DNA of 64,000 nucleotides from Flavobacterium psychrolimnae. GTDB lineage: Bacteria > Bacteroidota > Bacteroidia > Flavobacteriales > Flavobacteriaceae. The stretch spans positions 1 through 64,000 of the forward strand of contig NZ_QNUX01000007.1 in NCBI RefSeq assembly GCF_003312425.1. Direction: 5' to 3'. Below the pieces are notes generated by a model, which saw nothing but the letters and a program-made list of their open reading frames with translations, was not told the DNA's origin and did not search any database. The translations under genes and the position numbers were made by a program. Positions 1 to 51,824 of this stretch are shown piece by piece (positions within the stretch are counted from its first letter, which is position 1; each line of letters starts with the position of its first letter).

Positions 1-99
1 TAGGTGGTCAATTTGAACTGGAAAGTGGTGGTCAGTTTGCTCCGAAACTGGTGGTCAATTTGCACTGGAATAGGATGGTCAATTTGACTGGTTTTTCCA
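1..99. mobile_element. End of an IS21-like insertion sequence (partial)
   Basis: Four imperfect copies of a ~23-bp unit (core GGTGGTCAATTTG.ACTGG) stand in tandem at about 2-24, 25-47, 48-70 and 71-93. Multiple subterminal repeats of this kind are typical of IS21-family ends, and such elements end TG...CA. The block ends in CCA at 97-99, so read on the minus strand the element would begin TGG at 99. From base 100 the sequence continues as a coding sequence that the block interrupts. The transposase genes istA and istB would lie left of the window. The exact end is inferred from the CA terminus and the break in the neighbouring reading frame. Confidence 0.72.
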
Positions 100-321
100 A
101 TAGCCACTTAAACATATCATTCCGTATATGTCCATCTTATTGAATAAAATATTAAGGCCTGAATTAATCATGTCGGTAGTCGGCTTATAGCTAAGTGCAT
201 TTACCATTCCGCTTCCATCATCTGTTAGTGTAATTGAATCAATATTATATCCGTATATGTGATAGATAATTGCGTGTCCAGCCTCATGAATTGAGGCGAT
301 TTTTTTTTCGTTAATTAACAT
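100..321 (-). pseudogene. HEAGH metallopeptidase-like protein, 3' end removed by IS insertion
   Basis: The reading frame starts at ATG 319-321 and encodes about 74 genuine residues before running into the IS end; the last 6 residues (79-99) are IS-encoded. Near the N-terminus lies IHEAGHAIIYH, a zinc-binding HExxH motif in the HEAGH form seen in FtsH-like M41 peptidases. The remnant ends in ICLSGY, resembling the conserved M41 segment after the active site, but there is no AAA module and the second metal-ligand region is missing. The start overlaps the region of the stop codon of the upstream gene (stop at 315-317), so the two were probably translated from one mRNA. Peptidase kinship is inferred from the motif; activity is unlikely after truncation. 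Confidence 0.6.
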
Positions 322-608
322 AGGTTCTTTTTGTTTAAATTATTATCTACTAAATCTGCGAATCCAGATTGTATTGCAATTTCTAATATTTCGATTTTTC
401 CAAAATAATTATTTTTTGAAAAAAAAGTAAAGCATCTAATTAGGTCTTGTTTACTTGTTGCCCAGACACTGTTATTATTTCCTTCGGAGTCTTTTACATA
501 TATTATATAGTTCAATTCGAGCCCTCTAGCTACCATAAAAAAATCTTTCAGTGGAGTTTTCTCTTTTGTCCAAATAATTGGATCATGTTTTTTAATTTTT
601 GTTTTCAT
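315..608 (-). CDS. Hypothetical protein, 97 aa
   Basis: I do not recognise this family. The product is a small soluble protein with no signal peptide or membrane segment, rich in Lys, Asn and aromatic residues. It begins at ATG 606-608, about 30 bp downstream of a ~165-bp cassette that also precedes the next gene upstream (844-1221), and it is translationally coupled to the truncated HEAGH gene. Its position in an element edge beside a tRNA scar, and its shared upstream cassette, suggest an accessory role such as immunity or defence. That is inference from context only. Confidence 0.55.
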   Translation of the reverse strand: MKTKIKKHDPIIWTKEKTPLKDFFMVARGLELNYIIYVKDSEGNNNSVWATSKQDLIRCFTFFSKNNYFGKIEILEIAIQSGFADLVDNNLNKKNLC

Positions 609-637
609 ATTTTTATTTAATTTCTATTACAGTTTTA

Positions 638-802
638 ATTAGCACAAAACTTATTCTTATCTTTTACAAACCCCCATAAACTAAAAAAACACACCGAATT
701 TACTGATGTGTCTTTTTGTGAAAATAAAACGTGTTTACCCTATGTAGTTTTTTCCTTTTTAGGAATAAAATAATTAACAACTATTTTTTTTAAAAAGTAG
801 AT
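638..802 (-). repeat. Duplicated intergenic cassette, copy A
   Basis: About 165 bp that align nearly base for base with 1252-1419, from ATTAGCACAAAACTTATTC through the hairpin, then ACGTGTTTACCCTATGTAG and AATTAACAACTATTTTTTT. It lies immediately upstream of the 315-608 gene, with the repeat edge about 30 bp before the ATG, and after the stop codon of the 844-1221 gene. It holds a terminator-like hairpin at about 683-712 and probably a promoter, though no clean TAnnTTTG box is present; TAAGTTTTG on the minus strand is the nearest. Confidence 0.8.
683..712 (-). terminator. Hairpin in cassette copy A, probable terminator of the 844-1221 gene
   Basis: On the minus strand, ACACATC and GGTGTGT form a 7-bp stem with one wobble pair, followed by a run of T. 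It lies after the stop codon of the 844-1221 gene. The other strand also has a T run after the stem, so it may work both ways. Confidence 0.5.
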
Positions 803-843
803 GTATAAATATTAATTAATTTTATAAATAAAATAATGTTAAA

Positions 844-1221
844 TTATTTATAATCAAATCTTTTCTTTTGTGCTTTTATGGCTGTTGCCACAGTTGGGTA
901 ATTTTCTAAAATAATCGTGTTTTCATCTATATTGACAATTAAAAAATATTCATCATATTGCCAGCTATATTTATTACTTATTATATTTTCATCACGAAGA
1001 TTTATAACCTCGCCAATATTAAAATTATTTACTTCAACTTCATATTCCGTGAAATCAAAATAATTCCTTTTAAAATCTTTTAAAGTTTTGTAATCATTTA
1101 TTGTTGCTGCCCAACTTATGTTTTTTCCAAAACCATTTTTTATAACCTTGTAAGTATTATTACAAACTTCTTCACTAAAGTTTAAATACCCTCGTAATAT
1201 TTCCATTTTAATTTGTTCCAT
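844..1221 (-). CDS. Hypothetical protein, 125 aa
   Basis: Not recognised. The protein is soluble, without signal peptide or membrane segments, acidic in the middle, and ends in a basic tail (KAQKKRFDYK). The start chosen is ATG at 1219-1221; a second Met follows at codon 6. The gene is preceded by cassette copy B about 30 bp upstream and followed by cassette copy A with its hairpin, giving a cassette-gene-cassette-gene layout. It shows no clear similarity by eye to the 97-aa neighbour, so the genes differ while their control sequences are shared. The setting resembles arrays of immunity or other accessory genes, but no function can be assigned. Confidence 0.55.
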   Translation of the reverse strand: MEQIKMEILRGYLNFSEEVCNNTYKVIKNGFGKNISWAATINDYKTLKDFKRNYFDFTEYEVEVNNFNIGEVINLRDENIISNKYSWQYDEYFLIVNIDENTIILENYPTVATAIKAQKKRFDYK

Positions 1222-1251
1222 AATTTTCTTTATTTTTATAGTTCAATTTCT

Positions 1252-1419
1252 ATTAGCACAAAACTTATTCTTATCTTTTACATACCCTCTTAAACTAAAA
1301 AAAACACACCGAATTTACTGATGTGTTTTTTGTGAAAGTAAAACGTGTTTACCCTATGTAGTTTTTATTCTTTTCGGATTAAAATAATTAACAACTATTT
1401 TTTTTCTAAAAGGAGATAT
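1252..1419 (-). repeat. Duplicated intergenic cassette, copy B
   Basis: Second copy of the cassette at 638-802, with a handful of substitutions and 1-2 base indels. It contains the same ACACACC...GATGTGT hairpin at about 1304-1330 and the same spacing to the downstream ATG (1221). No gene lies within the next several hundred bases upstream on this strand, so the terminator half of this copy has nothing to terminate. This fits loss of a preceding gene from the array. Confidence 0.8.
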
Positions 1420-1887
1420 GCAAATGTAGGACAGTTTTATTTAAAAACCTATTTATTTTACATTATTCTTATTTTATTAGTCATATTTATAAACATAATA
1501 TTAAGTTTTAATTAAAAAAATAAGAATAAGTTTTCTTTATCAAAAAATTGTACTTTCCACATCTTTTTGTTTTTTACTATTTCATGGATTTTTTTTACCG
1601 TCATTATATAATTTAATTTTCATTTTAAAGGAAAGAAGAAAACCAATTTTAGAATTTCAAGAAAATATCTACTAAATCATTTTAGAATTTACCACCTCCT
1701 CAAAACTCGTGTAGTAAAATCAATAAAAGTGGATATTGTACAAACAAGTATTTAACCTTTTTTAAAAATACAATAAAGTAAAAAAATCCCTTGGTTTACG
1801 TTTTCCCGTAAAGAAGCTAAATCTTTTAATTATATTTTTATAAAAAATAATTGCACTTTGATAATTTAACAAAAAAAAATATTTATT
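1420..1887. other. AT-rich intergenic region, no gene seen
   Basis: About 470 bp of AT-rich sequence between the minus-strand cassette array and the plus-strand lipoprotein genes. I see no reading frame, RNA or repeat here beyond A/T runs. Confidence 0.5.
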
Positions 1888-2471
1888 ATGATAAAAAAAA
1901 TATTCCCAATAGTACTTTTAACACTATTTTCGGTAATTACATCTTGCTCAAGCAGTGATTACAACAATATAACAAGCAAAAAAGGATACGCCGAAGTAAC
2001 ATTATTAGGGGATACACATCGTCGCGAATTTGAAGAAGGACTAACCTTTAGTTATGGGGCAATTAACTGTGATGCAAAATTGAATTAAGAAACCAAGGTG
2101 TAGGGCAATTTGAAAAGTCAAATTATTTTTTAAACATAGGTTTTGTTCATAATGTAAATCAGCAACAATTTAAAGGATACAACATTAATACTACCGCCGT
2201 AAAACCTTATTTAGATGTTTACAATAATGAGTGTAATAATAATTTTGATCTTCTTGTCTCTTATGATGACAGCGCCAATAACAAATCCTTAGAATTAAAC
2301 GCCACTAGTAATAATTACAATAAAATAGTGGAGATATCTGTTTTTCGCGAGACCACAGAAGAAATTACCTATGCCGTTAAGGGTAATTATGAAGTTACGT
2401 TTAAAAAATCTGATAACTCTTTAATACCAGTTAAAGGAAATTATAAGACGTTTATATATGTGTTAAAATAA
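1888..2471 (+). pseudogene. Lipoprotein gene split by a frameshift, ~194 aa if restored
   Basis: The first part (ATG 1888, frame 1) encodes a lipoprotein signal with lipobox VITSC and stops at 2086-2088. A second frame is open from 2073 to the TAA at 2469-2471, 132 codons without a stop, unusual by chance in such AT-rich DNA. Its composition fits a periplasmic or surface protein (many Asn and Tyr, NYEVTFKKSDNS near the end). The frames meet inside 2071-2086, most simply at the AAAA run 2076-2079, so one base has been gained or lost, or the assembly has an error. I do not recognise the family. The DUF1566-type lipoprotein gene follows 43 bp later and may share its transcript. Confidence 0.72.
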
Positions 2472-2514
2472 GAAATATCATTTAATTTTTATATCATTTA
2501 ACTAAGCTTACAAA

Positions 2515-3111
2515 ATGAAAAAAACATTTATACTTTTATTAGCTCTTTTTTTAATGTCTTGTAGTAATAATGATGATGAATCATCATCAGATAATAACCC
2601 AAAACCTGATTTAGTATATGCTATTGGTGATAAAGGTCCAGGTGGTGGTGTAGTTTTTTATCTTGATGGAAAAGGAGGTGGACTTGAAGCGGGAACAACC
2701 CTAGGAGTGGCTAAATGGGAAGATTCACCAAATTATACATTTACCAATATAATAGGTCTTGGGACAGAAATTGGTACAGGAAAAACTAATACAGCTTTAA
2801 TTGTTAGTGCTATTGGAAGCGGTAAGTATGCTGCGAAACTTTGTGATGATTATATTCAAGGAGGTTTTGATGATTGGTTTTTACCAAGTAAAATGGAATT
2901 AAAGGCAATGTATGAATTATTACATGATGTTGGTTGCGGTGGTTGTATTTCACCACTTAATAACATTTGGAGTTCTTCACAAGGGAGTACAAAGGGTTCA
3001 GCTTGGAATATAGATTTTATGACCGATAGGGATACAACACCATATAATAATTGGATGTTCGAACTTAATAAAAATGCAGATCTGTATGTAAATCCAGTCC
3101 GAAAATTTTAA
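2515..3111 (+). CDS. Lipoprotein with DUF1566/Lcl-like domain
   Basis: 198 residues. The N-terminus is a lipoprotein signal (lipobox FLMSC at about 12-16) followed by a Ser/Asp/Asn-rich linker. The remainder starts with YAIGDKGPGGGVVFYLDG, then W..W-type aromatic positions, DDWFLPSKMEL and a late IWSSSQ segment. That order is characteristic of DUF1566 (Lcl C-terminal) domains, which are common in surface lipoproteins of Bacteroidota and spirochaetes; their biochemical role is not established. Four cysteines outside the lipobox (including GCGGC) could form disulfides. It probably sits in the outer membrane or at the surface. The upstream frameshifted lipoprotein may be co-transcribed. This is the last gene before the tRNA scar. 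Confidence 0.75.
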   Translation: MKKTFILLLALFLMSCSNNDDESSSDNNPKPDLVYAIGDKGPGGGVVFYLDGKGGGLEAGTTLGVAKWEDSPNYTFTNIIGLGTEIGTGKTNTALIVSAIGSGKYAAKLCDDYIQGGFDDWFLPSKMELKAMYELLHDVGCGGCISPLNNIWSSSQGSTKGSAWNIDFMTDRDTTPYNNWMFELNKNADLYVNPVRKF

Positions 3112-3275
3112 AAGATAAATAAATTCTAATCAGATTTTCTTGTAGTTTTTATTTGCACAAGGAGTGACGAAAAGGAGTGACGAAAACCTTGTAAAACGAG
3201 ATATAACGATATTCGTTAAAATCAAAACACCTGTAAAACAAATGAATACGCAAAATAAGAGTCTTGAATATAAGA

Positions 3276-3320
3276 TTCATAACCCTGAGGTCCCGAGTTC
3301 AAATCTCGGTCTCGCCACCA
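3276..3320 (+). tRNA. 3' half of a CAT-anticodon tRNA, probable attachment-site remnant
   Basis: The sequence from the anticodon loop TTCATAA (3276-3282) gives the 3' anticodon strand CCCTG, a 5-nt variable loop, a perfect T arm (CCGAG / TTCAAAT / CTCGG, 3293-3309), the acceptor 3' strand TCTCGCC, discriminator A and an encoded CCA (3318-3320). The 5' half is absent: the bases before the loop (TAAGA) cannot pair with CCCTG, and no GGCGAGA acceptor strand is found upstream. A break exactly in the anticodon loop is the usual outcome of tyrosine-integrase insertion into a tRNA gene, so this is probably one att site. Anticodon CAT points to tRNA-Met or tRNA-Ile2. Confidence 0.78.
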
Positions 3321-3325
3321 AAGCA

Positions 3326-3358
3326 AACCCTTAAGCATTAATTGTTTAAGGGTTTTTT
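3326..3358 (+). terminator. Rho-independent terminator after the tRNA fragment
   Basis: AAACCCTTAA (3326-3335) and TTAAGGGTTT (3346-3355) make a perfect 10-bp stem, and the T run extends to 3358. It lies 5 bp after the tRNA CCA, as expected for the original tRNA gene's terminator. Confidence 0.85.
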
Positions 3359-3808
3359 ATTAAAATTACGTTTCGAAAATCTAAACCTCAGATTGTTCCA
3401 GTGAGGAAAGGGAGTGAGGAATTTCATAAATTGAGTTATATTTTTTATCTAACATCAAATGGAAACAGTATAAATAAAAAGTTTTTTTTCATGTATACCA
3501 TTTCTGTTTTAGCCGAATATTTTGATTTCCAAAGCGCCATCTATAATCAAGAATGAAAGTATTGGATTTAAATAATACTTCTTCAAAACCACATTAATTG
3601 AAAGAGCTGATAAAATCATAAATAAACTTTCTCTCATAGATTTGCGGCATGTTTCATCCTCAATAGCATTGCAATTTTAAAACTAAATCATTTTCATTTT
3701 CTTCAAAAAGTTATCAATAGCCGTCAAGCCCTTTTAATGAAATTTACAAGACTGTGAATTTTGCAACTAATAAAATTAATTGTGTACGGAATAGATTTTA
3801 CTAATTTT
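3359..3808. other. Intergenic region, no gene recognised
   Basis: About 450 bp. A minus-strand stretch around 3510-3670 is open for about 54 codons, but it has no convincing start context or recognisable motif, so I do not call a gene. It may be decayed coding sequence next to the insertion site. Confidence 0.4.
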
Positions 3809-3816
3809 TAAATTTG
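3809..3816 (+). promoter_or_regulatory. Candidate -7 promoter box TAAATTTG
   Basis: Matches the Bacteroidota -7 consensus TAnnTTTG, 43 bp before the ATG of the DUF892 gene at 3859. The same TTAAATTTGTT core precedes the paralogous DUF892 gene at 35001. No clear -33 TTG is seen. Confidence 0.42.
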
Positions 3817-3858
3817 TTTATGAATTATTAACATAATCAATTTCAAAGATCAGAAGTT

Positions 3859-4479
3859 ATGAAAACGATAAAAGACGAACCTGCAAAAGCGGTTAGGCCA
3901 GCGAACAAATCGACAGGGAAAAAAGCTAAGGAATCAGTTGCTACCCCAAAAGACGTAATGGTAAAGGCACAACCTGATGCAGCGAAAGACTTGAGAGATT
4001 TTTTGGAAGATGGATTAAAAGATATTTATTGGGCGGAAAAAGCGTTGACAAAAGCACTGACCAAAATGGCTAAAAATGCTACATCCACTCAGTTAATTCA
4101 GGCATTTGAAGAACATTTGAAAGATACAGAAGAACATGTAACCCGTTTGGAACAAATTTTTGAATCATTGGGTATTCAAGCAGTAGCCAAGAAATGCGAT
4201 GCAATGACAGGACTATTAGCTGAAGCCAATAGAATAATGATGGAAACGGAAGTTGGGCCTGTCCGCGATGCAGGAATGATTGCCGCAGCACAGAAAGTGG
4301 AGCATTATGAAATAGCTACTTATGGAACTTTGCGCGTTTATGCAGTTACTCTTGGCAAAACAAAAGCAGCCTTACTTCTTGCAAAAACACTTGCAGAAGA
4401 GAAAAACGCTGACGTAAAATTAACAGAAATCGCTGTATCCTATATCAACGTTGATGCTGCGCATGAAGGTGGTAAATAA
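3859..4479 (+). CDS. YciE/YciF-type ferritin-like protein (DUF892)
   Basis: 206 residues. A basic Lys/Ala-rich N-terminal tail of about 40 residues precedes a DUF892 four-helix domain. Visible family features are LRDFLEDGLKDIYWAE in helix 1, EEHLKDTEEHVTRLE in helix 2, the KKCDAMTGL turn, and KVEHYEIATYGTLR in helix 3; the conserved Glu and His residues in these helices would form the di-iron-type site. The family (E. coli YciE/YciF) is linked to stress responses, with no firm biochemical role. A closely similar paralogue is at 35001-35576 with the same promoter core. It is monocistronic here. The tail is unlike the domain and could bind DNA or anionic surfaces, which is inference. Confidence 0.88.
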   Translation: MKTIKDEPAKAVRPANKSTGKKAKESVATPKDVMVKAQPDAAKDLRDFLEDGLKDIYWAEKALTKALTKMAKNATSTQLIQAFEEHLKDTEEHVTRLEQIFESLGIQAVAKKCDAMTGLLAEANRIMMETEVGPVRDAGMIAAAQKVEHYEIATYGTLRVYAVTLGKTKAALLLAKTLAEEKNADVKLTEIAVSYINVDAAHEGGK

Positions 4480-4974
4480 ATAAAGATTTTCGATCCAGAA
4501 TTTTATAATGACATAAATGTGCACGAATCAAAGATTTTGTCTCTTGTGTTTTTTTTTGGATTATTATTTTCTTCACTGTGGTCAAAATATTTGGAGAAAA
4601 CTTCTTTTTTTAAGTGTCTTTGACTACAATTAAGCTTCCCTTTTAATCATTACAATTCGTATTTCTTATGACTGTTAACATATACATATTTAAAAAACAA
4701 TAGCCAATTTGCAACCACAAATAGAAGAACATAATGTAGCGATTGATTTAGTGCCACGTTCCTGAAACAAATAGATGATTCTCAAATGGTCGCAAAAGCA
4801 ACTTGAAATCTAAATAAAATAGTAGCTAATCTTTCACTTATGTAAAAACTATACTACTTTATCTATTAGATTTGTGCTGAGATTTTATTTAAAGAAGAGC
4901 ATTTCAAATGATTTCAAAAAAAAAAAAAAAAATAAAACATTTCTAAATATTTTAAATATTATCAACTTTCTAAA
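4480..4974. other. Intergenic region, no gene seen
   Basis: About 495 bp of AT-rich sequence ending in a run of about 14 A residues near 4918-4931. No reading frame, hairpin terminator or repeat stands out. The A run is a possible slippage site but lies outside coding sequence. Confidence 0.5.
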
Positions 4975-5886
4975 ATGAAAAAAAAATTAATACTGTTGTT
5001 ATTTTTAGTACTGCCTTTTTTAGGTAATGCACAAGAATACATAGATCTGTTTTCCATCAATTATGGGAAATCGCAAAAAACAACTTTCGAAGATTCATCG
5101 ATTAACACCGACATAACTACATTTCAAACGAATATTATTTTACCAATTGTTTTAAATGAAAAATATATTGCTGTTACCGGTGTAAATTTCAGTAGCTATA
5201 ATTTACAATTGTTACCTAATTCTGAAAACAATCATTTATACTCTACAAATTTAAGAGCTGGTTTGAGTGTAAAACATTCCGAACATTGGAGTGGAATATA
5301 TCTTTTTCTGCCAAAAGTCGCATCTGATTATATCAATCTAAGCAGTGAAGACATTTACCTAGGCGGATTAGCTTTGTTGAAATATAAAAGAAACGAAAGT
5401 TTTGGTTATGGCTTAGGACTTTACGGCAGTAGTGAAGCTTACGGTATGTCCGTAGTTCCCATTGTTACTTTTTATTATCATAGTCCAAATAAACGTTTTG
5501 AAATAAATGCCTTTATGCCAAATGATGCAGATATCAATTATAATTTAACTGATAAAACAAGAGTTGGCTTAGATTTTCTGGGTCATGGGAACAGTTACAA
5601 ACTAACCACTGATAACGTTCGTGCTAACTATGTCGAAAATAATTCGATAGATTTTTCTACTTATGTACAACGAAGCGTTTTGGACAAAAAAATTCTTTTA
5701 CGTCTAAAAATGGGTTACTCTTTAAACCAGTTTAGAGTGTATCCAATAGATCAAAAACTTGATTTACAAATTCTAGCTTTAAAATTTGGGGATAACCGAA
5801 CTCCTATTTTAGATAACAAATCAAATACGCTACTTTTGAAATTGGAAGCTATATATCGTTTTGATTTGAGCAACGTTAAAAAATAA
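4975..5886 (+). CDS. Probable outer-membrane beta-barrel protein (DUF6268-like)
   Basis: 303 residues with a Sec signal peptide (LILLLFLVLPFLGNAQ, cleavage after about residue 19). The mature part has alternating hydrophobic and polar stretches, many aromatic residues and short turns (for example YGLGLYGSSEAYGMSVVPIVTFYY), as in small outer-membrane barrels. The overall look matches the DUF6268 family of Bacteroidota, an assignment from memory and not certain. It stands alone, with no operon partner. The frame stays open past the stop codon for another 19 codons (5887-5943, including RYGFGAQYNLES), so the terminal strand may have been shortened by a nonsense change. Confidence 0.6.
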   Translation: MKKKLILLLFLVLPFLGNAQEYIDLFSINYGKSQKTTFEDSSINTDITTFQTNIILPIVLNEKYIAVTGVNFSSYNLQLLPNSENNHLYSTNLRAGLSVKHSEHWSGIYLFLPKVASDYINLSSEDIYLGGLALLKYKRNESFGYGLGLYGSSEAYGMSVVPIVTFYYHSPNKRFEINAFMPNDADINYNLTDKTRVGLDFLGHGNSYKLTTDNVRANYVENNSIDFSTYVQRSVLDKKILLRLKMGYSLNQFRVYPIDQKLDLQILALKFGDNRTPILDNKSNTLLLKLEAIYRFDLSNVKK

Positions 5887-6147
5887 ATTCAAACACTCAG
5901 ATATGGCTTCGGTGCGCAATATAATTTAGAATCAAAAGCTAACTAAGTTCCTGTTACTATTCATTCATTTTTTCAACCGCACTTTGAATTAATAGCTCGG
6001 GTAACTGAAAAGGAGCTTCCCAGGATTACATACTGATTTTGAAAATTTTAGACACATGCAGTCTCTGAGACTTCGATTTAAAAATATGGGTTTGCTTCAT
6101 TACCCCTGTTTTTTTATGTGAACAGTTATTTTAGACCGGAACAAATA

Positions 6148-7872
6148 TTATACTGGGAATGTTATATTCACTTTAAATCCTTTCTGAAGCGCATTATCAA
6201 AAGTAAGAGTTCCATCTACAGCCTTGACACGCGTTTCTACATTCAGGAGTCCGTTTTTTAAGTTTATCTCTTCCTTTGAAACCCCAATGCCATTATCCGT
6301 GTATTCTATCTGAATTTTTTTATCGATATTTTTAAAAGTAATAACGACCAAACTACATTGACTATGCTTTTTCATATTGACTAGCAATTCCTGAAGAGTG
6401 CGATATATTGTAATTTTTTTATTGGTTTCCAAAGCTGTATTTTGTACCACATCCAGACCATTCACCAATATGTTGACAGCATCGTTACTGTAATTTGACA
6501 TCATTTCTTTCAAATTGGGAACAAAATTAGGACCAATATCAATAGAACTATTTTCTCTGGAAATATTTCGGGTTCTGGAATAAATGCTATCCAAATCATT
6601 GAGTAGAATTTCTTTATTGTTCTCAGTAGATAAATCCTGCGTTTCCGCAAACGTCATTATTTGGTATAGATCATTTGCCAATTCGTCGTGAAGTTTTTTG
6701 GAAATGCGTGTTTCAGTATTGTACGATATTCTGATTTTTTCTCTTTTGCTTTTAGTTTTCAAAAAATTAATGATAAAAACAGAAAGAAAAACCAACAGCA
6801 ATACTACAAAATACAAAAGCAGTGTACTATTTTTTTGCTTTTCTAATTGTAATGTAGTTTGTGCTTTTTGGGCAGATAATTTTAGATTATCCGCTCTGTT
6901 TTGGTCGCTGTCATATTTGATTTTTGCAAATTGATTTTTAGCATTGTTTCGGACTTTAATAATACTGTCATTAAGCTTTATATATATTAAAGCATACTTA
7001 TTATTACCCCGCTCAAAATTATTTTTAACTAAAAAAGATAACGATTCCAGTCTCTCTTTAACACTACCAATAGCCATTGTAGTTTTGTACGCTGCCAGTG
7101 CATATTCATTCGACTTTTTAGAATCTCTGTTTAAAAAATATTCCGAAAGATGCAAATAGCTTCCAAGAACTCCATAGGTGTCATTATTTTTTTTTCTGAG
7201 AGTTAATGCCTGATTCATCAAGTATGAACCTTCCTGGTTGCGATTCACTTTATAATATGAATATCCCAGATTGTCCAAAACTATTGCTTTAGTTACATTA
7301 ACGGAGTCTAAAACATCCGACTTTATAACTGCTTCTAAAACTTTTATTGAAGTGTTGAATTCTTTTTTTTGAATATAAACAGAGGCTTTATTATTTTCAA
7401 TGGTAATTCTAGGCAAAGTATCTTTCGTTACACTTTTAGCTTTGTCATAATAATATAAGGCATCCTCATAATTAGAAAGCTGTTTAGATGAAATCCCCAA
7501 CTGATTATACGCGGATGCTTGATAGAGTAAATCCCCTTTTGAGTATGGCAAGGCTTCGATCAGATTTTTTTCGCTCCCTAAATAATCACCAAAAATTTCT
7601 TGAATAACAGCCATTTGAACTAAATTATAGGCAATCATCAGACTATCGTTTTCTAACTCATATAAAATTTTGGAGCGGTTATAAAAATAAAAAGCACTAT
7701 CAAATTTTTTATTTGCATAATTTGCCATTCCTAAGTCTAAAAACTTTCTCGCCTCAACGCTATTCGCTGTTGCCGTATCTTCATTGGGTAGTGAGTCTTT
7801 AGACTTTGAAGTTTCTGTGCAGGAATAAAGAGTAAAAAGCAGTAAAAAAACAAAAATCGAGGAACGATACAT
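6148..7872 (-). CDS. TPR-containing lipoprotein sensor histidine kinase
   Basis: 574 residues. It starts with a lipoprotein-like signal (TLYSC at about 15-19), followed by TPR helices over residues 40-300, one membrane segment at about 354-371, and a cytoplasmic kinase core. The phosphoacceptor is probably His395 in KKLHDELANDLYQ, the HisKA_3 style of NarL/LuxR-partner kinases; the HATPase part carries YTDNGIGV and a shortened G box. Such kinases normally pair with a LuxR-type regulator, but none is adjacent and both neighbours point away, so it is an orphan here. The N-terminal TPRs would sense a periplasmic partner. The combination of lipobox and internal membrane segment makes a true signal anchor equally possible. 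Confidence 0.82.
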   Translation of the reverse strand: MYRSSIFVFLLLFTLYSCTETSKSKDSLPNEDTATANSVEARKFLDLGMANYANKKFDSAFYFYNRSKILYELENDSLMIAYNLVQMAVIQEIFGDYLGSEKNLIEALPYSKGDLLYQASAYNQLGISSKQLSNYEDALYYYDKAKSVTKDTLPRITIENNKASVYIQKKEFNTSIKVLEAVIKSDVLDSVNVTKAIVLDNLGYSYYKVNRNQEGSYLMNQALTLRKKNNDTYGVLGSYLHLSEYFLNRDSKKSNEYALAAYKTTMAIGSVKERLESLSFLVKNNFERGNNKYALIYIKLNDSIIKVRNNAKNQFAKIKYDSDQNRADNLKLSAQKAQTTLQLEKQKNSTLLLYFVVLLLVFLSVFIINFLKTKSKREKIRISYNTETRISKKLHDELANDLYQIMTFAETQDLSTENNKEILLNDLDSIYSRTRNISRENSSIDIGPNFVPNLKEMMSNYSNDAVNILVNGLDVVQNTALETNKKITIYRTLQELLVNMKKHSQCSLVVITFKNIDKKIQIEYTDNGIGVSKEEINLKNGLLNVETRVKAVDGTLTFDNALQKGFKVNITFPV

Positions 7873-8238
7873 AATTGTAACTTTTTTCCGAAATTAGTAC
7901 TTTATAAGTAATATTCCGAAATTAAATTATGGACTATTATTTTAATAGTAGCGTCAACACATTAAAATTATCATAGCACCTAAGTTATTATCTTATTTTT
8001 AAAACAACTACAATAGCAATCCGTTAACAACTATTTATTGTTAAATGCTAACAATGAATTTTATTCTTGAGTAATTTTGTAAAAATGAAATCATGAAGCA
8101 GGTACTGAAAAAATTTAAAAAACCACAGCAACTATTAAAATTCTAGATTGCATTTTATATTCTTGGAAATAAAAAAAGTCAATTACTTTATTTCAACAAA
8201 AATTTATTTTACTAATTCATCTACATAAACCAAATTTC
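7873..8238. other. Divergent intergenic region with inverted repeat, promoter box and a 17-codon frame
   Basis: Between the kinase and the 8239 gene, TTAACAA (8024-8030) and TTGTTAA (8038-8044) form a 7-bp inverted repeat with a 7-bp spacer, a possible operator. A TAnnTTTG match (TAATTTTG, 8072-8079) lies just before a tiny open frame at 8093-8146 that would encode 17 mostly basic residues (MKQVLKKFKKPQQLLKF). Whether it is expressed cannot be told. Confidence 0.35.
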
Positions 8239-23850: not shown

Positions 23851-23943
23851 GGATATTATTGCCGTAATACTGAACTAGAAGTATCAGTTTTAATTATTCT
23901 GGAATAAAAAATCCCTTCTGTGAGAACAGAAAGGATCAATTTG

Positions 23944-24018
23944 TCGGGGTGGCAGGATTCGAACCTGCGGCCTCCTGCTCCCAAAGCAGGCGCGATAACC
24001 GAGCTACGCTACACCCCG
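23944..24018 (-). tRNA. tRNA-Pro (anticodon TGG)
   Basis: On the minus strand, acceptor CGGGGTG (ending at 24018) pairs with CACCCCG. The D arm contains GCTCGGTTATCGC. The anticodon stem CCTGC/GCAGG encloses TTTGGGA with anticodon TGG. The T arm GCAGGTTCGAATCCTGC is perfect. Discriminator A is at 23944. CCA is not encoded, unlike the tRNA fragment at 3276-3320. Length is 75 nt, with all invariant positions in place. Confidence 0.97.
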
Positions 24019-50993: not shown

Positions 50994-51824
50994 ATGTCAA
51001 AATTAAGCATTTACGAAACCGGTTGGATCAACCTAGTTTTTCAAGACAGAAACAAAGAATATGGAGCGTATCAGTTGCGCCAAGAAGCCACTAAAACTTC
51101 TTTAAGAGCACTGTTTATGGGAATACTTCTATTAGCCTCGCTTTTTAGTCTACCAACATTAATTAGTCATTTTAGTCCGAACAATGATGTTACAGCCATA
51201 ATACCTGATTTTTCTAATACAGTAGTTCAATTATCGGATGTTGTACCAAACCAGATTTTGGAAACCCAAAAACAAGTTTTGCCCGAAATCAAAAAACAAA
51301 ATCCAGAAACAGCTGTTGAAAGTGCCCAACTTATTAACCCTATAATTACACAAGCGTCACAAGCTGATCAAGACATTGCTAAAAACACCGATAATACCAG
51401 TGTGACAAACACAATTACAGAGGGAACAGGAACCGTAGGAATCAATCCAACCTCTACATCGGGAGTTGGAACGGAGACTGCAATACCAATTGTGGATTCA
51501 GGAAATACTATTGTCAATAGCTTATCATTAGATAAACTACCTGAATTTCCTGGCGGAATTAATAAATTCTATAGTTATGTTGGTAACAATTTTGAAAAAC
51601 AAGAAATTGATGGTAGCGGTTCGATTCGAGTGTATGTTTCTTTCGTAATTGAAAGGGACGGCAGCATGACTGACATTCAGGTAAAAAAAGATCCTGGTTA
51701 TGGTTTGGGGAAAGAAGCTGTTCGCGTATTGAAATCCTTGAAAACAAAATGGTCGCCGGGAATGATTGCCGGAAAACCAGTGCGAACTGCATATAACCTT
51801 CCCATTAATGTACAGATGAATTAA
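50994..51824 (+). CDS. Energy transducer TonB
   Basis: 276 residues. The N-terminal IYETGWINLVFQDRNKEYGAYQLRQ is the usual start of Bacteroidota TonB proteins. A single membrane helix lies at about 37-57, then a long flexible linker rich in Thr, Asn and Gln, and a C-terminal TonB domain at about 190-276 (IRVYVSFVIERDGSMTDIQV, AVRVLKSLKTKWSPG). It couples the proton-motive force to outer-membrane receptors; exbB and exbD are not adjacent. The linker has little Pro, unlike enterobacterial TonB. Probably dedicated to the upstream receptor. Confidence 0.92.
   Translation: MSKLSIYETGWINLVFQDRNKEYGAYQLRQEATKTSLRALFMGILLLASLFSLPTLISHFSPNNDVTAIIPDFSNTVVQLSDVVPNQILETQKQVLPEIKKQNPETAVESAQLINPIITQASQADQDIAKNTDNTSVTNTITEGTGTVGINPTSTSGVGTETAIPIVDSGNTIVNSLSLDKLPEFPGGINKFYSYVGNNFEKQEIDGSGSIRVYVSFVIERDGSMTDIQVKKDPGYGLGKEAVRVLKSLKTKWSPGMIAGKPVRTAYNLPINVQMN

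Follow-up and report, generated by a model that had tools for sequence, protein, structure and literature searches.

The window, as we call the whole stretch analysed here, comprises the 64 kb at the start of contig C21 in the genome of Flavobacterium psychrolimnae (G000; 23 contigs, 3.65 Mb). Reading of the sequence revealed that positions 3276–3320 extend from a TTCATAA anticodon loop to an encoded CCA, and that they match the last 45 bases of an intact tRNA-Met gene, on the plus strand of a different contig (G000:C13:39091–39167), except for one base, which is C in the window and T in the intact gene. This confirms that the window contains the 3′ half of a CAT-anticodon tRNA and that an intact gene sharing this half is located outside of it, both of which an earlier note on this DNA had proposed. 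A control search with the reversed pattern gave 0 matches. The complete repeat (window 3274–3322) spans 49 bp, 48 of them identical to the C13 gene (98%, E 2.5e-17); identity starts exactly at the anticodon loop, as the note had stated, save for two extra identical bases that precede the loop. The coordinates of these and neighboring features are collected in Table 1.

ARAGORN did not call a tRNA at 3276–3320, its sole call in the 64-kb window being a tRNA-Pro at 23943–24018, in agreement with the single tRNA listed by Rfam, which also reported a Flavo-1 RNA. The earlier note had left open whether the gene was a tRNA-Met or a tRNA-Ile2; ARAGORN typed the intact C13 gene as tRNA-Met from its CAT anticodon, which alone is also compatible with Ile2. 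The differing position forms, by eye, a G-U pair of the acceptor stem in the intact gene. We considered this base as a marker to distinguish host from element sequence and dropped it: the C of the window half occurs in none of the 33 other copies listed from the genus pattern search described below, all of which carry T, and drift in the window half is thus equally likely.

Downstream of the encoded CCA, where the note had placed a terminator, a 13-bp stem with a run of T residues behind it occupies 3325–3355 (the stretch 3318–3362 folds at −16.6 kcal/mol). A counterpart of this stem is found directly after the intact tRNA-Met of a related genome, G007, and the stem therefore appears to be the original terminator of the tRNA gene, displaced together with the half.

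Table 1. Features at the left end of the window (positions from the first base of contig C21).
Feature	Position	Strand	Basis
IS-like terminal sequence, common to the starts of five contigs; contig break	1..99	.	Contig-end comparison
Island ORF with a HEAGH motif and a sub-cutoff Peptidase_M50B match, cut by the IS end	79..321	-	ORF list, Pfam
Island ORF, 97 aa, no Pfam match	315..608	-	
Island ORF, 125 aa, no Pfam or NCBIfam match	844..1221	-	
Island lipoprotein-like ORF fragment, 66 aa	1888..2088	+	
Island lipoprotein-like ORF, 198 aa, sub-cutoff Lcl_C match	2515..3111	+	
Perfect tandem 13-mer, AAGGAGTGACGAA x2, candidate integrase arm-type site	3159..3184	+	Inferred from sequence
attR-like repeat, displaced 3′ part of tRNA-Met	3274..3322	+	48/49 bp identical to C13 copy
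Anticodon loop TTCATAA, start of the common block and putative crossover (overlap) segment	3276..3282	+	Half-copy starts in the genus
Intrinsic-terminator-like stem	3325..3355	+	Fold; counterpart in G007
First right-flank gene, DUF892	3859..4479	+	79% identical gene beside tRNA-Met in G007

The empty site and the two island pieces

G007 contains a single match to the half-tRNA pattern (up to 3 mismatches), which is an intact tRNA-Met gene, and the sequences flanking it are those found apart in F. psychrolimnae. The 3,068 bases of C13 up to and including the tRNA are 87.5% identical to G007 over 3,073 columns, and, onward from the same tRNA and in the same orientation, G007 aligns with window positions 3274–3601 (72.8% over 334 columns) and 3690–4689 (81.4% over 1,009 columns). 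In a three-way alignment G007 tracks C13 before the anticodon loop and C21 after the tRNA; likewise, the best relative of the DUF892 gene starting at window position 3859 (79% identical) lies 0.8 kb past the tRNA-Met of G007. Probes from the intervening DNA (window 100–3270 and C13:39189–41609) had no match in G007, and the DNA lacking a G007 match starts 22 bases after the C13 tRNA and, on the window side, stops 4 bases short of the repeat. The comparison with an island-free strain that the earlier note had asked for thus yielded both flanks joined through one intact tRNA-Met, without the tested island DNA; together with the intact copy, it supports the claim that 3276–3320 is one end of a genomic island.

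The note had also contrasted foreign DNA to the left of the half with core genes to its right. The left part is indeed island, but the right part is not core throughout the genus: in G029, DNA matching the window from position 8189 onward (the DUF6642 gene region) lies ca. 0.2 kb after tRNA-Met, so the right flank (window 3425–8188) varies within the genus as well. Among the ten best named relatives of the DUF892 protein, nine are titled Flavobacterium; in the 80 loci of such relatives, inspected up to 6 kb to each side, we found no tRNA-Met, and the six tRNA genes present in two of them were of other types.

The assembled island amounts to at least 5.8 kb, 3,280 bases on the window side and the 2,556 bases of C13 that follow tRNA-Met. 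The two pieces were compared with 296 genomes (F. psychrolimnae included), scoring the two best candidates per genome, and matches at E ≤ 0.001 occurred in 154 genomes for the window probe and in 39 for the C13 probe. Among the matches listed, the best from another genome was, for the window probe, one of 75 bases in the 198-aa lipoprotein ORF (G002, 77%, E 7.1e-9) and, for the C13 probe, one of 157 bases (G110, 71%, E 5.0e-8), the remaining ones listed being also short.

In the window piece, an intergenic block of just under 190 bp occurs twice (609–796 and 1223–1410, 614 bp apart, 83–97% identical depending on the segment); both copies adjoin small minus-strand ORFs, in a cassette-like array within the island. 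Downstream of the 66-aa lipoprotein-like ORF, the DNA up to position 2455 resembles by eye a continuation in another frame, and this ORF is a possible pseudogene.

On C13, the tRNA is followed by a terminator-like stem, ca. 0.7 kb without any ORF larger than 83 aa, a 304-aa ORF, a 106-aa protein, the start of a further gene and an IS-like end. The 106-aa protein matches HTH_17 (5.2e-9) and, below cut-off, an excisionase family. Searches of Pfam, NCBIfam and PDB gave no match for the 304-aa protein at the thresholds applied, although we take it to be RteC-like from the C-terminal pattern of that family. Exact peptide patterns retrieved no relatives of it from the genome contigs; among the 296 genomes, three besides its own contain relatives. 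In G063 the relative lies beside a gene of tyrosine-recombinase type (PF13102 above and PF00589 below cut-off), and in G011 beside a gene whose product is 30% identical, over 311 columns, to the G063 recombinase-type protein. The third, in G110, is located 0.66 kb after a tRNA-Phe gene, on the same strand.

The order tRNA, ca. 0.7 kb without sizeable gene, RteC-like protein, small protein and large (ca. 500-aa) gene is present at both loci, the tRNA being tRNA-Met in our genome and tRNA-Phe in G110. It is tempting to see in it the fixed left end of an undescribed family of small, tRNA-targeting flavobacterial elements, with the integrase not beside the tRNA, although we consider such a family doubtful. 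The small proteins of the C13 and G110 loci show no similarity to each other, which counts against it, and neither a long nor a short 3′-half pattern retrieved a second tRNA-Phe fragment in G110, which has one copy only, so that tRNA-Phe is only a putative target of the G110 element.

Halves of tRNA-Met in other genomes

The half-tRNA pattern was searched, allowing up to 3 mismatches, in 199 genomes including that of F. psychrolimnae, a design that misses more diverged tRNA-Met genes by construction. It was found at 34 places in 24 of the genomes, and the 33 places read (all except G062:C70) comprised 22 intact genes and 11 halves, the latter distributed among 10 of the 24 genomes, F. psychrolimnae included. 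The start of all 11 halves lies 0–2 nt upstream of the anticodon loop, which in the G178 half reads TTCGTAA. A half shares its contig with the intact gene in G004, G110, G129, G175, G178 and G182.

A search with PF00589 in eight of the ten half-bearing genomes (all but G046 and G081) revealed a tyrosine-integrase gene 51–63 bp after the intact tRNA-Met, on the same strand, in four of them (G004, G129, G175 and G182), and none at tRNA-Met in F. psychrolimnae, G110, G146 or G178. These four integrases, three of which were checked in Pfam, are 403–449 aa long and share 42–98% identity with one another. Contig C12 of G129 contains one intact tRNA-Met and two halves (at 51488, 110918 and 137141), with integrase genes after the first and the second of these; the second integrase gene, after the first half, is on the opposite strand and its product does not match the other four integrases. 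This layout fits a tandem pair of islands.

The 249 ORFs from the tRNA-Met regions of the other genomes gave no match to the F. psychrolimnae island pieces at E 0.01, and a single DNA match, of 36 bases, was found between the island and these regions; consequently, these comparisons do not tie the island to the same element family.

The earlier note had expected the intact tRNA to flank an integrase gene. The intact tRNA-Met is there, but the known parts of the island (2.6 kb on C13 and 3.3 kb in the window, with the middle unseen) contain no integrase gene. Six integrase-family genes occur in the genome (on C1, C5, C7, C11, C13 and C16), all of them outside of the island pieces; the one on C13 lies 16 kb before tRNA-Met. 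Tblastn comparisons with the integrases of relatives and of the genome itself did not reveal remnants in the island pieces either (best E 0.98 and E 0.62).

IS-like ends at the contig breaks

Both island pieces end at IS-like sequences. Comparison of 44 of the 46 contig ends (all starts, and all right-hand ends but those of C22 and C23) showed that the first 99 bases of C21 are common to the starts of C5, C12, C16 and C18, and that the end of C13 is common to the ends of C10 and C16 and to the starts of C6 and C22. Each kind is thus represented by five ends, which fits five copies of an IS that the assembly did not cross. These ends, with their multiple repeats, presumably resemble those of the IS21 family; the label has no support from a transposase, since in the assembly the IstB profile matched only partially and at two places, one of them above cut-off (34.4 bits) and none in the island pieces. 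Both matches probably correspond to other ATPases. The profile also matches in 13 of 14 control genomes.

The gene interrupted by the IS on the C13 side aligns over 59 residues, at 41% identity, with the beginning of a 511-aa protein from G110, and the IS end in the window cuts a different ORF (79–321). A single clean IS insertion therefore fails to explain the junction. An island middle that was either deleted between two IS copies or left unassembled would, and it would also account for the missing integrase. The rest of the 511-aa-type gene had no match in the first 1,500 bases of the other nine IS-bounded ends, and no target-site duplications that could pair contig ends at the IS copies were seen by eye.

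Two other IS-bounded sites were noted. The first 600 bases of C6 (L072), next to another IS-like end, contain by eye GGTACAA repeats and a stretch like a tRNA 3′ end that finishes in GGACCA; a second tRNA island may end here. Contig C16 (L095; 16.5 kb), with IS-like sequences at both ends, carries a 380-aa integrase gene after an mnmE-like gene, as well as genes that by eye resemble those of type I restriction-modification and SSB; it looks like another island.

Origin of the half tRNA gene

We consider it very probable that the half in the window is the displaced, attR-like end of an island inserted in tRNA-Met, with its left end on C13 and its middle lost or unassembled. An element carrying a copy of the tRNA-Met 3′ half would have recombined with the host tRNA-Met at the anticodon loop, by means of a tyrosine integrase; the 5′ half of the host and the 3′ half of the element would have formed the intact gene now on C13, while the host's own 3′ half and terminator would have been shifted to the opposite end of the element, at window 3274–3322. 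Copies of the IS-like element may have entered the island later; the central part, which probably included the integrase gene, would have been lost or not assembled. In favour of this reading are the intact and half copies within one genome, the empty site in G007, the recurrent start of halves at the loop, the integrase genes beside tRNA-Met in four genomes and, in the C13 tail, the HTH_17 gene with its sub-cutoff excisionase match and the 304-aa protein with relatives next to recombinase-type genes. Against it are the location of the two ends on different contigs, so that one continuous island is inferred and not read, the missing integrase in the known pieces, the IS flanks (different genes, no duplication visible), the base of the window half that no other listed copy shares, and the lack of matches between the island proteins and the ORFs from tRNA-Met regions of other genomes.

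A larger rearrangement, in which recombination between the repeats and the IS copies placed the tRNA ends far apart with no single island joining them, could be argued from the unjoined contigs and from the IS ends, whose neighbouring genes differ and where no target-site duplication was visible by eye. It is nevertheless improbable, because both flanks carry DNA unmatched in G007, which a pure rearrangement does not give, and because six other genomes maintain the intact gene and the half on one contig. Far less credible is a partial duplication, or a decayed second tRNA-Met, unlinked to integration: the single differing base and the lack of an integrase in the known pieces are consistent with it, but the half and its following DNA are placed exactly at the 3′ end of the intact G007 gene, and the start at the anticodon loop recurs in the 11 half copies. 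Equally improbable is an artefact of assembly or contamination, suggested by the draft state of the genome and by the distance of only 3.3 kb from the half to the contig start: G007 shows synteny with both flanks, and further genomes of the genus have the same layout.

The preferred reading, an island inserted in tRNA-Met, agrees with known systems. According to Islander (PMC4383910), the signature of such islands is a tRNA gene plus a displaced fragment; the catalogue holds 2,083 islands with anticodon-centred sites (the anticodon being subsite A) and 3,760 with 3′ fragments. As in those islands, here an intact tDNA and a 3′ terminal fragment, downstream and in the same orientation, occur in one genome with the island between them, order and orientation being deduced from synteny with G007, given that the two ends are on separate contigs. 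The common block starts at the recognized anticodon subsite, where crossover probably took place. Unlike the islands of that catalogue, the assembled part here lacks an integrase gene and is split over two contigs at IS-like ends; its at least 5.8 kb, with the middle unassembled, compare to the Islander range of 2 to 200 kb (PMC4383910). The empty site in G007 is a test that we added to the Islander criteria.

Partial tRNA genes from mobile elements are a source of wrong tRNA calls, as described in a further study (PMC9897764). The partial copy is similarly parted here from the complete one by an island; conversely, the hosts and elements are others, and some of the partial copies there were called as tRNA genes, while the window half was not. 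We did not find any paper on Flavobacterium or Bacteroidetes combining tRNA-Met and integrase, which does not imply that none is in print.

Riemerella anatipestifer presumably belongs to the same order as the present bacterium. Its 10K genomic island (PMC6764341) also lies directly after a tRNA gene and has direct repeats at both ends; tRNA (tRNA-Arg) and repeat are different, and its tyrosine integrase is known and tested.

Integration into tRNA genes is a process long known, and the present one is a clear but ordinary case. It fixes one island boundary to the base, and the island reading explains the foreign character of the first 3.3 kb of the window, with its cassette-like genes, lipoproteins and IS end. 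The modest addition is the repeated use of the site: the anticodon loop of tRNA-Met is a recurrent integration spot in the genus, with one integrase family beside the tRNA in four genomes, and this recurrence helps to locate further islands.
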